Source: Mesostigma viride
Lineage: Eukaryota; Streptophyta; Mesostigmatophyceae; Mesostigmatales; Mesostigmataceae
Length of the DNA stretch: 64,000 bases
Direction: 5' to 3'
Assembly (NCBI GenBank): GCA_009746045.1
Contig: RPFO01000219.1
Coordinates: 658,501-722,500, forward strand
Numbering within the stretch: position 1 is the first letter of the stretch; each line of letters opens with the position of its first letter. Below the pieces are notes generated by a model. That model ran no database searches, was not told the DNA's origin, and saw only the letters and a program-made list of their open reading frames with translations. The position numbers were made by a program, and so were the translations under genes. Shown piece by piece: positions 6,591 through 63,132 of the stretch.

Positions 6591-9500
6591 TCATGTCTTC
6601 TTCGAACCGCCGAATCCTCCAAAGCCCATCAGCGCTGCCATTTCTGGGTCTACCCCTTCCAGGTCGTCCGCAGGGGGTGCCTCCTGTTGGCAGGTGGCAA
6701 TAATGCACATACAAGAATGACGTTACGATGCGCTGTTGTATGGTTAGTATAGGTGGTCATCAAATATTGGTGAGCCTACCTTGTGAGAAGGAGCTTTGGG
6801 ATGATGATGATGATGATGATGATGATGATGATGATGATGATGATGATGATGATGATGATGATGATGATGATGATGATGATGATGATGATGATGATGATGA
6901 TGATGATGATGATGATGATGATGATGATGATGATGATGATGATGATGATGATGATGATGATGATGATGATGATGATGATGATGATGATGATGTTGACGAT
7001 GATGATAACGGTGGTGGTGGTGGTGGTGGTGGTGGTGGTGGTGGTGGTGGTGGTGGTGGTGGTGGTGGTGGTGGTGGTGGTGGTGGTGGTGGTGGTGGTG
7101 GTGGTGGTGGTGGTGGTGGTGGTGGTGGTGGTGGTGGTGGTGGTGGTGGCGGCGGTGGTGGTGGTGGTGGTGGTGGTGGTGGTGGTGGTGGTGGTGGTGG
7201 TGGTGGTGGTGGTGGTGGTGGTGGTGGTGGTGGCGGCGGCGGCGGCGGTGGTGGTGGCGGCGGCGGGCGGCGGCGGGCGGCGGCGGTGACAACAGCGGCG
7301 AAGACGCCGATGCTCCCCGGCCCTCCCCCACGAGCACAATGACGACAATGATGATAATGACGACAACGATAGTGGTCAGGTTCTGTAGGTGCACCATGAG
7401 GAGGTGGCACGTGGAATTGCTGACGAGTGCAGCCCAGGAGAAAGAGAAACTAGGATGGGGGAAATGGACTATGAAAGCATGGGGGGCCAATAATGAATCC
7501 ATAGAAAAGCAACAATAACGTCTCAGTGCATGGACTCTGATTCGTAATCTAAGACAACACACTCCAAAGGTTGCAAGTACACCCCAAAGGTTGAAAGTAC
7601 ACCCCAAAGGTTGAAAGTTACAAGTTTACAAGTTTTAAGACGACAACAGGGCTAAACATCGGGGTTGAGAAACGCCACGAGAGCGGGACGAGTGGAAAGC
7701 GGGCCACTCTTGAGTTTCGAATGGCCGCGATGTTATTGGCATATGACGGAGACACCACAACATGATTTAATATCTCGTAACACCGTATGTTTAGCGCTGA
7801 CGGAGGAAGCTTCGAAAAAGTCTTTTGCAAACATTGGCAACATAACGGCATCCGTTGGATGTAAGGATTGGCACCGTTGGATTGTTCTCCTTATCCCAGA
7901 GTAAAAGGATAACGTATACCTGTAGACAAGGATAGTTTGCGTGGAAACGGTCCACTATAACAGCCAAGCATACATTACAGGAAAAATGTCAAGCCGGATC
8001 CAGACTTGGGCTATCAACGCTGTGCATCAGGCTAGAGGTCCTGGGTTCAAAGCAAGCCTCCGTGGCCAACACAAACAAACAAAAACAATCATAGAAAAAG
8101 ATGTCAATCACCGAAAAATATTCTGGCGCACCTGCTTATCCCGCTTCTTTTCCTTCTTCTCCTTTTTCCGTTTCTCGTCCTCCTCCATGGCCCGCTGTAT
8201 CCGGGCATCGAACTCTGCGCCATTCAAGAAACGAGCACAGTTAGGGGGTGCATGCCAGTCAAGCCTTGAGGAGGGAAAAAAAGTTACGGGTACAGGACAT
8301 ACCAGTTGTCTCGTTGCTTCCAGTATATGGACTACACACACATGAACATACACACCCCCACAGGTCGACACGATATACAGACGCCGGCAGATAGACGCAA
8401 CATACAGACACCGACAGATTGACACGATATACTGACGCCGACAAATAGCATGGAAGAGTTACGGCATGACGAAAGATACGGATACCAACATAGATTATGG
8501 AGGAGCTGAAAACACACAGACCTAGGAGTGTGGTTGTCCACCAATCACAAGATAGTGTGAAATTAGGAGCCTTTCTTAAAGCTAGTCTACTTAGAGACTT
8601 GTTGAGCTTTGTCTCATTATATATGTGATATGTGCTGGGCCAACAAGATAGGGAGCCTCTCCTAAGGCTAGTCTACAAAGTGACGCTATTTTATCCCTCG
8701 TTTCCCAGTCCTGGCAGCCAAATGAAACCTGCGCTGTCCTCTGCTGTTACGCAGGTAACCATTGTGGTTATTCACATAGAACCTGACCATTTCACACAAG
8801 AGATTATACTGACAGGCCATCGCACTGCACGGGTTTTCCCTGACACGCGCCTGTCACTTTTTCCACAGGATCAATATTAAGCATTGCCACGGATAGCAGT
8901 AAAAAAACAGACATGCACAAACAGCCCCCAAATTGATGGTAGTAGCACCAAGGGCATGGAGATACCTTCTTCTGCCGTGGTTTGTGTCGATGCTTTCCGC
9001 TTGAGCTGCTGAAACCGTTCCCGCACCTGTGAGAAGAAACAGGTCAAAATGAATGGTGCAAACCCAGCCCCCTGGTCAGCTCATGCAGGAAATAAATACG
9101 ACGGCGCGTAGTGTCAGCTTGGATCAAGACTGAAACAGGTAAGACATACCCCATGCATATTAATCGCAGGTAAACAATTGCAAATTCCAACCATATAGAC
9201 CACCGTTTCGATGTTATCTGCAGGCAAACAATTGCGAATTCAAACAAATTACTGAACAGCGAGTGTACAAGTGTATGCCATGTCATACTACACATATTGG
9301 TTGTAACGACAGCTGCACATGTAGCATTGTTTTAGTTGCACAGTTAGCAACATAGTGGGCATCACCACATCAAACATGGACATGTATCCTCAGCCGCCTG
9401 TCGTGGATACAACTGTAGAAGAGATCACTGTAGCGTACAGCACTGTAGCGAACATGACGTACATCCTCGGCTGTCTACATACAGCAGATAGCTAGCACCA

Positions 9501-12500
9501 TGGTTTCCGGCGCTATAGTGACCATGACGTACGTCCTCGGTCGTCTATACTGTAGATAGCACACTGGTAGATAACACCACAGCAAAGGGGACGTACGTCC
9601 TCGACCGTCTTCAGTATGAAGGCACTGAAATATATAGCACTATAATAGACAGCACTATAGTGACCATGACGTACATCCTCGGCCGTCTTCCTCTCCACAC
9701 GCATGGACATGCCGAGCGCTCGTTGGTCTGAGGTTGCATGCGCCGGCACGAACACAAAATGAAGACCAAGTAGACAGACAATACAAAGTCAGGATGGGCT
9801 CATGTCATCCTACTTCTGCTGCGCGCCACTGGGTCCGTGCTCTCATGGGCCAGCACAAAGACAATCATCTAGGACCAAGAAAAATTGTTCTAGGACCAAG
9901 AACAATATCATCTAGAACCTTATGTCACCTAGACCTACATATCATCGAGGACCGAGAAACGATATCATCTAGAACCTTATGTCACCTAGACCTAAATATC
10001 ATCGAGGACCAAGAAACGATATCATCTAGGACCTTATGTCACCTAGACCTACATATCATCTAGCACCAAGAAACGATATCATTAAGGACCATATACCATC
10101 TAGGGACCCTAAATCATGTCGGACCAACAATAAATCTGCGGTCAAGACATCATCGTTACGGCGAGCATTAGTCTGCGGCATGGGTGCATGATGAGGCAAC
10201 GACTAGACTATGAATAGAAGGGTGAAAGGCAGGAGTCCACCTGGAACTCAGCCAACATGCTTGAGCTCTACCCTCAGGGTGGAGCGGCGAGCAGCTCTGC
10301 AACTTGGCTCCAACGTCAAGAATTCCTGGCACGGTCCACATCAGAAATTATATTCCAAACAAAATATATCTGCTTGACCATCCCAAATGACATTGTAGTG
10401 CCCACGCACGTGTCTTCCCGTTCATGTAGTCCACGTACTTGGCTGGACCACAAACTAACCTGTGGACATGAGGGCGACCAAGAAACACCCTAAGCCCCGG
10501 AAACATGATACCTCCCACGTACGTTTCTTGCCGTTGATGTGGTCCAGGTAATTGGCTGAGTCCTTCACGACGCATTCGCACACCTTGCAGTAGTAGCCTG
10601 CCTGGCAAGCCCAGGGTGGGGGAAAGGGTGGAGGAACCGAGGTCACAGGGGGAAGTAGAGACATGCAAGCGCAGGAGCCAGAAACAACAAGAGGCATACG
10701 GGGGTTGCCTTGCGAGGCACTAGGCCCTGGCAAAGGCCCGCAATGTAGCGCATACCATGGCAAATGTAGCGCAATGTAGCGCATACCATGTGACGGCGCG
10801 ATGAACGAAGAACAAGCTAGCTGTAGTAAACAACAGCAAGCGACCTAGCTCTCCACCCAATCAAATATACACTGGTTTACATTTGAGTTGAAATGATTGG
10901 CTTGAGATGTCAGCATCACTGGGAAGAAAGACACCATGCAACGCCTAGAAAGCCAAGAGAAATATTAGGGCAAAGCCAATAACAACGAATGCATCCACTT
11001 TAACAAAGTTTTGTGATCCATGAAATCTTCAGATGGACACACCAACGGGGCAGGACGCTCCACATCAAACAGCTAAGGATGCGTGCCTCCCCGCGCACAT
11101 CCTGCTACCCCTAGTAGCAATACTACCAGCATGTTGACGAGCTTGAAGGTGCTCCATGTCTCTCCAGAAACCCCAACCATCTAAGTAGTTAGATATGCAC
11201 TTTCATCAGGTAAATTTAAGGGTTCATTTTTGGGAGAGCATGGTGCATCAATAACACGAAGCGCTTACTACTTCCACAATCAACCAGTCCTCAGAGATCA
11301 CGTCATCAGGATCTGAACTCTCTACTTTACACTGGTCCACAAAACTGCCCCAAAATCTGGAATCATCTGACCATGCACACGAGCTCACACAAGCGTAGCC
11401 AATGGACATCCCACAAGATTGTGAAAAAGATCAACAACCATCAAAAGATGGCTTGCGTCACCGTGTGCATGGCGTGACCTTGCGTAAACAAACATGAGGC
11501 GGGCGCCTCGACCAGGGGGATGAGCCAACTGAGAATGGGACATGGACATGAAGTAGGTGAAAGCGGGAAGTAGATATCAGGTCAACCTAACTAGCCCGTG
11601 TGTACAAGGCGCGGGCTAGAGCTGGGATGGGCCTGCTCTACATTTTTCGTTTATTTGTTTTCTTGGCCTAGACCTCTTTTTATGCTGTGTCCTCAGGTCA
11701 AACGATATCGCGTGTGTCCCCCGCTTGCGAGCGAGAGCGCGTACTCACCTGGCCACTGAGGGGCGTTTGGTGGGTTACCACCTGCAGGGGATGGGGCCGT
11801 GGCCAGGGATAGAGAACGAGTGACGAGGTTAGTTAACAACGCTTCAATTAACTAGAACCTGCAGATCGTGGATAGTGGGCAGGGATAGAGAACGAGTGAC
11901 GAGGTTAGTTAACAACGCTTCAATTAACTAGAACCTGCAGATCATGGATAGTGGGCAGGGATAGAGAACGAGTGACGAGGTTAGTTAGGAACGCTTCCAA
12001 TAACTAGCACCTGCAGATCATGGATAGAGGGCAGGGATAGAGAACGAGTAACGGCATTAGTTAGCAACGTCCGCATAAACTACCATCCGCAGATCATGGA
12101 TAGTGGTGGGCATCGTAGGGGTGTAGACAAGGGCAATAAGATCAGCCAACCAACTGCACTCACACACAAATGCGTGGGTTAGAAGGCATGCTGAGTTCTA
12201 ACATCACAAATCGTGCACAAACAAGACACTTGGAAAAACAGCCACGGATTTTGTCTATATGCATGTATGATGACGCAAATACAAGCCAGCCACAATACAT
12301 AGTTTAATAATGAGCATCAATGTCAAACAGATCACCCCCCAAAGTTGATAAGCCCCGGGGTTGACAAAACCCAGGGGGTGAGGGGACTCCAGGTGGCAGA
12401 GAAACCGATGCTCCACAGTCAAAGGCTTGTAACTAGAGTTCTGCCCAAAATGCTCAACACCCTCTACCACCGGTGGGCTCGCCCTCCACCATTCATGTGC

Positions 12501-62957: not shown

Positions 62958-62984
62958 CTGGGGGAGCAGAACAGCATCACATAG

Positions 62985-63132
62985 AGATGTGGAACACGGT
63001 CAGGAAACAGGAAACAGCTGATTCCGCGCCTGGGGGAGCAGACAAGCATCATTAAAGAAAGGTTGCACACGGCCAATAGGGCAGGAAAAAGATCATAGGC
63101 AGCTGTTTCCATGCGTGGGCGAGCAGACAAAC
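62985..63132 (-). repeat. Two upstream copies of the acceptor border of exon 62771-62957
   Basis: cagctgattccgcgcctggg plus ggagcagacaagcatc (63015) and cagctgtttccatgcgtggg plus cgagcagacaa (63102) copy cagctggttccaggcctggg plus ggagcagaacagcatc (62943). Confidence 0.92.

Follow-up and report, generated by a model that had tools for sequence, protein, structure and literature searches.

The stretch of DNA analysed here (hereafter, the window) comprises 64,000 nucleotides of contig RPFO01000219.1 of the streptophyte Mesostigma viride (positions 658,501 to 722,500), in an assembly of 439.9 Mb and 2243 contigs. By joining exons in frame, we modelled four genes in the window, namely a gene that we take to be exostosin-like, a SNU23/ZMAT2-like gene, PEX22, and an FNDC3-like gene (Table 1), with a total of 31 introns and 62 exon-intron borders. 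At a number of these borders, the adjoining intron contains one or more additional copies of the border itself, including part of the exon edge and the neighboring intron sequence. Below we describe these copies and their recurrence in other genes, and weigh the possible explanations for them.

Border copies in the window and in other genes

The presence of border copies in the window is confirmed. Each border was represented by up to 30 exonic and 30 intronic nucleotides, simple repeats were masked, and a net of at least six matches was required in each arm of the alignment. In this anchored test, a same-strand copy was found in the adjoining intron at 18 of the 62 borders (11 of 31 donors and seven of 31 acceptors), and the reverse complement of the adjoining intron gave copies at none of the 62. 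At a score of at least 15, the number of copied borders was 17. A looser cut-off yielded 55 copies at 24 of the 62 borders, from one to nine per border, together with seven reverse-strand copies at five borders. These results bear out the initial annotation, which had reported one to eight copies in the same orientation at about 17 borders.

Parent and copy were compared over the anchored arms, which replaced a first round of alignments that overlapped themselves. The summed identities for donor copies were 278/348 in the exon arms and 409/538 in the intron arms, and those for acceptor copies were 117/149 and 209/263, respectively. The clearest cases are a donor array with 61-nt spacing in the FNDC3-like gene (62520-62796) and an 89-nt acceptor repeat in the SNU23/ZMAT2-like gene (13286-13507). 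All 18 copies outscored each of 200 slices from introns of the other genes in the window (P = 0.005, the floor of this comparison), which demonstrates only that the copies are local, and so provides no test of whether borders seed them.

Misjoined haplotypes or collapsed repeats could create such copies during assembly, a concern that the initial annotation had itself raised. The two arrays mentioned above are near-exact, and the assembly does contain haplotype-like contig pairs, such as C1641:40301-68600 and C887:341000-370300, which share 95.4% identity over 12.8 kb aligned and differ in length by several kb. However, 16 of the 18 best copies diverge from their parents by approximately 8-34%, which is above the 4.6% between these two haplotypes, and hence they are not assembly errors. 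With this objection confined to the 61-nt and 89-nt arrays, we consider it very improbable that the copies as a whole are artefacts.

Border copies recur elsewhere in the genome. Exon matches to Cpn60_TCP1 provided a comparison set of ten CCT/Cpn60 genes with 35 introns and 70 borders, from which three of 38 exon pairs, as well as contig C1641 (the haplotype of C887), had been excluded. Ten of these 70 borders were copied at a score of at least 15 (seven donors and three acceptors), and two had reverse-strand copies. Both paired sets together contain 27 copied borders out of 132 at this score. The Cpn60 translations appear to be of the plastid type and of the green lineage. An added set included exon ends without a known partner as well as a kinesin gene (L056, one of many kinesin matches), and excluded ends without one clear splice site. 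In this set, copies were found at five of 20 donors (none reversed) and at none of 11 acceptors (one reversed).

Table 1. Modelled genes, border copies and other features of the window; for copies, identities are given for the exon arm and the intron arm
Feature	Position	Strand	Details
Exostosin-like gene	2..3653	+	2 exons (2-1906, 3171-3653), 1 intron; frame open across junction
SNU23/ZMAT2-like gene	6591..15495	-	10 exons, 9 introns; continuous frame; Pfam zf-met
PEX22 gene	16500..26176	+	8 exons, 7 introns; continuous frame; Pfam HAD_Pex22 (E 4e-25)
FNDC3-like gene	46343..62957	-	15 exons, 14 introns modelled; 5' end partial; label from initial annotation
Copy of exostosin-like acceptor at 3171	2588..2633	+	20/31, 13/16
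Copy of SNU23 exon 4 acceptor at 13304	13375..13482	-	19/19, 88/89; 89-nt tandem unit
Copy of SNU23 exon 4 donor at 13222	13126..13152	-	13/16, 9/11
Copy of SNU23 exon 6 donor at 10523	10390..10445	-	30/36, 14/20
Copy of SNU23 exon 7 acceptor at 9727	9817..9879	-	12/18, 31/45; AG lost
Copy of SNU23 exon 7 donor at 9675	9345..9476	-	13/14, 81/121; one of three
Copy of PEX22 exon 2 donor at 19951	19994..20065	+	15/22, 34/51; one of five looser copies
Copy of PEX22 exon 3 acceptor at 21092	20739..20783	+	19/23, 17/23
Copy of PEX22 exon 4 donor at 21860	21938..22040	+	27/30, 42/74; GT changed to GC
Copy of PEX22 exon 5 donor at 23246	23309..23343	+	22/28, 7/7
Copy of PEX22 exon 7 acceptor at 25249	25010..25064	+	20/26, 21/30
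Copy of PEX22 exon 7 donor at 25350	25413..25471	+	45/49, 9/10
Four extra copies of FNDC3 exon 1 donor at 62771	62520..62770	-	exon arms identical, 26 nt; 61-nt spacing
Copy of FNDC3 exon 2 acceptor at 60210	60290..60360	-	19/22, 31/50
Copy of FNDC3 exon 5 donor at 56954	56707..56782	-	9/11, 55/65; in 49-nt-spaced array
Copy of FNDC3 exon 10 donor at 52590	52453..52550	-	49/73, 29/36
Copy of FNDC3 exon 11 donor at 52017	51867..51982	-	29/43, 62/75; 25-nt-period array, nine looser copies
Weak copy of FNDC3 exon 13 acceptor at 50218	50449..50468	-	8/10, 8/10; score below 15
C-rich array in PEX22 intron 1	17502-19488		11-23-nt unit
LTR-retrotransposon-like stretch	~33746-42890		by eye
Similar ends of LTR-like stretch	near 33746-34500 and 42147-42890		by eye
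Hairpin-like (fold-back) elements	~39985-40200 and ~40433-40630		by eye
Reverse-transcriptase-like stretch	~29550-31000	-	by eye
Reverse-transcriptase-like stretch	~43380-44930	+	by eye

Short duplications throughout the introns

The frequency of copying was determined at the borders, at fixed offsets from them, and at points in the intron interior; points with more than ten masked bases were dropped from the interior, offset and CCT tests. In the introns of the window, 23% of 4763 interior points were copied on any side and 16% on one side, as at a border. The respective values for 4225 points in the CCT introns were 20.5% and 13-14%. For donors, copies were found in 11 of 31 cases at the border and in 5-9 of 30-31 at each intronic offset tested (+5 to +150), and the frequency decays into the exon, from 9/30 at -10 to 3/29 at -30 and 0/25 at -50. 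The acceptor profile includes six copies among 26 at the border, 3-9 among 24-28 in the intron, and none among 31 at 20 nt into the exon. Among 1253 segments internal to exons, 23 were copied in a flanking intron. Thus, the frequency of copying forms an intronic plateau that is edged by the border and has no clear peak there.

Self-comparison of 66 introns revealed duplications that are local and in the same strand. We identified 53 direct matches in 20 introns versus two inverted matches in two introns, no matches between introns of one gene, and a single match between genes. The matches have a median offset of 148 nt, length of 87 nt and identity of 89.5%; intronic matches are typically 40-300 bp long, and the copies mostly lie 65-560 bp apart. 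The number of duplicated bases per intron was 26-44 for introns shorter than 900 nt, 97 for those of 900-1300 nt, and 242 for longer ones. The density of local direct duplication averaged 0.21 in 29 intronic chunks of the window (four of them at zero) versus 0.008 in seven intergenic or mobile-element chunks (P = 0.0006, from a small sample); the non-intronic stretches used were 3654-6558, 15497-16499, 26178-27050, 32791-33740 and 45301-46342. In random 10-kb stretches, the density ranged from 0.04 to 0.25, versus 0.08 to 0.53 in the CCT/Cpn60 regions. This difference may reflect transcription, or else the young age of the mobile elements.

We consider it likely that the border copies are the edge of near-neutral short tandem duplications that run through the introns. 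According to this scheme, introns all over the genome would acquire nearby, like-oriented duplicates of short segments, whether by break-repair fill-in or by slippage. A duplication located wholly within an exon would be removed by selection, and one within an intron would be neutral. A duplication that crosses a splice site would be tolerated provided that splicing keeps to the outermost site, because the second copy then falls inside the intron. Border copies would be conspicuous because conservation keeps the exonic part of the parent unchanged, so that they can be recognised for longer. The initial annotation had proposed that introns grow by tandem duplication, and this part of the proposal agrees with the predominance of direct matches, with the concentration of duplicated bases in the longest introns, and with the spanning of splice sites by some of the duplications; its other part, the seeding of this growth by borders, is considered next.

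Possible roles of border seeding and the splicing rule

Duplications that span splice sites might arise or survive preferentially, so that borders seed intron growth, and preferential survival was the explanation favoured in the initial annotation, which proposed a comparison of borders with intron interiors. Several results support this idea or otherwise weigh against near-neutral duplication. Relative to the one-sided interior rate, which we adopted although it favours border seeding, and with no correction for detection, there were 17 copied borders in the window versus 9.2 expected (P = 0.004), and 18 copied donors in the pooled sets versus 8.1 expected (P = 0.0001). After correction for detection as described below, the window donors are still in excess (11 versus 6.5, P = 0.045), as are, at P = 0.057, the donors of all sets together, and the correction itself assumes the arm lengths, uniform ages and the share of indels. 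The GT dinucleotide was kept in 30 of 37 donor copies versus a matching-base retention of 43% in interior pairs. This excess varies in significance from P = 0.001 at the loosest cut-off to P = 0.15 at the strictest, with nothing significant for acceptors, and may arise because the GT of the parent is fixed, which would halve the divergence. Contiguous tandem repeats (match length at least 0.8 of the offset) make up only 36% of the self-matches, a share that reaches 45% at offsets of up to 200 nt, and the remainder have a spacer. Finally, contigs C1641 and C887 differ by eight indels of at least 10 bp, two of which are simple repeats, and a clean tandem duplication (18 bp) accounts for only one of the six complex ones, although these events are few.

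Other comparisons point away from border seeding. In addition to the lack of a clear peak at the border, the window borders do not differ significantly from the two-sided interior rate (P = 0.15), and the pooled acceptors show no excess even over the uncorrected one-sided rate (nine versus 8.6 expected). Under the same uncorrected comparison, the CCT set had ten copied borders versus 7.6 expected (P = 0.19), with seven donors versus 3.6 (P = 0.04). Moreover, the exonic part of the parent does not drift, which makes copies of a border more readily recognisable than those of neutral DNA. Simulation of detection on real sequences, which superseded an earlier version on random sequences (ratio 1.39; pooled 27 versus 23.2, P = 0.19), put the detection ratio at 1.45 for donors and at 1.17 for acceptors. 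The corrected numbers fit the neutral simulation approximately, with 23 of 86 donors seen versus 16.6 expected (P = 0.057) in all sets, 12 of 55 versus 10.1 (P = 0.30) outside the window, and nine of 77 acceptors versus 11.2. Most of the twofold donor excess over the one-sided interior rate therefore vanishes once the conservation of the parent exon is allowed for. A border-seeded process is not needed by the data and appears improbable to us, while a weak excess at donors may exist. These results also provide a worked control, in that repeats of splice sites look special partly through exon conservation, and a comparison of this kind must correct for that.

The initial annotation had further assumed that either copy can still splice, which is contradicted by the reading frames. 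When the best copy is used in place of its parent, the protein is harmed in 18 of 18 cases, with a stop in 17 of the 18 resulting insertions and a length that is not a multiple of three in 11, so a harmless exchange of parent and copy, which could have favoured border seeding, is not available. In a scoring matrix derived from the 31 modelled introns, 12 of the 18 copies score at least as high as their parents. Since the copies are often as strong as the parents and would be harmful if used, we infer that the outer site would be picked by position or context rather than by local strength. At one exon of the FNDC3-like gene, five donors follow one another every 61 nt and share identical exon arms; they can be distinguished by position only. 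Given the high frequency of copies, RNA from this organism would show which of several near-identical sites the spliceosome uses, and how local duplication makes introns longer.

Copies were found at 23 of 86 donors versus nine of 77 acceptors (Fisher P = 0.018), and outside the window at 12 of 55 versus three of 46 (P = 0.047). After adjustment for the lower detectability of acceptors, these values become P = 0.075 and 0.085, respectively, and the higher frequency at donors is suggestive only. One explanation of the contrast is selection by the splicing rule, in which the real donor would be favoured as the first transcribed and nearest to the exon. Extra donors downstream would then be harmless and build up, whereas extra acceptors upstream would be mis-chosen and purged. 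However, the acceptors do not fall below the interior rate, and together with the adjusted contrast this leads us to view such selection as an improbable source of the copies. The more general idea that splicing acts as a polarised sieve on splice-site duplications, through which spare donors accumulate downstream and spare acceptors upstream do not, is in our opinion doubtful, although somewhat less so. If it were true, the genome would amount to a natural experiment on a large scale, and the competition between near-identical sites could reveal the tie-breaking rule of the spliceosome.

Relation to known systems and remaining features of the window

The tandem genomic duplication model of intron gain is reportedly associated with Rogers 1989, Gao and Lynch 2009, and Hellsten 2011. 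PMC3443670 reviews how introns may be gained through tandem duplication. In this model, as in our case, redundant splice signals result from tandem duplication, but there exonic AGGT gives rise to new introns, whereas here existing introns gain copies (PMC3443670, PMC4974935). The initial annotation knew of no description of the phenomenon; however, tandem duplication crossing an intron-exon border has already been published as a mechanism of intron gain in potato RdRp (Ma, Lan and Niu 2016, PMC4974935). The potato case resembles ours in the direct tandem duplication of an intron end together with an exon start, and a further tandem duplication, of 83 bp, lies within an intron of that gene. 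It differs in that the downstream copy provides the acceptor of the new intron and the mRNA changes, whereas the copies described here would, judging by frame, be silent within the old intron; moreover, it is one case, and the border copies here are many. In the open-licence literature, we found no study describing such copies across the existing introns of a whole genome, which is weak evidence of absence.

For novel intron positions in Drosophila (Lehmann 2010, PMC2891723), similar sequences at intron borders were read as footprints of duplication, as here, but those duplications lie within coding exons, are inferred from intron position, and are few. Small tandem duplications are a common product of break repair (PMC8355091), where short direct ones form a common class of insertions, as would be the case here; that evidence comes from induced breaks in mouse and human cells. 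Introners (PMC9860276), like the duplications described here, have been proposed as the source of much intron sequence, but they are dispersed copies in many genes. We rejected introners as an explanation, since the same sequence did not recur in the introns of many genes, with one match between genes versus 53 within introns among the 66 introns.

Regarding the gene models, all 17 introns of the exostosin-like, SNU23/ZMAT2-like and PEX22 genes have GT-AG splice dinucleotides, and the listed junctions of the FNDC3-like gene are all flanked by GT and AG, except for the donor of exon 14, which was set at a GT. The last base of the SNU23/ZMAT2-like gene was derived by counting from the translated protein. 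The modelled first intron of the FNDC3-like gene (62770-60211) probably hides one exon, as indicated by mismatched reading phases, and a search of this intron (60211-62770) gave no convincing candidate. Intron 1 of PEX22 mostly consists of a C-rich 2-kb array. Between PEX22 and the FNDC3-like gene, a stretch resembling a long terminal repeat (LTR) retrotransposon was recognised by eye, with similar ends and with two long, near-identical hairpin-like elements inside it. It is flanked by two reverse-transcriptase-like stretches that are alike and lie in opposite orientation.

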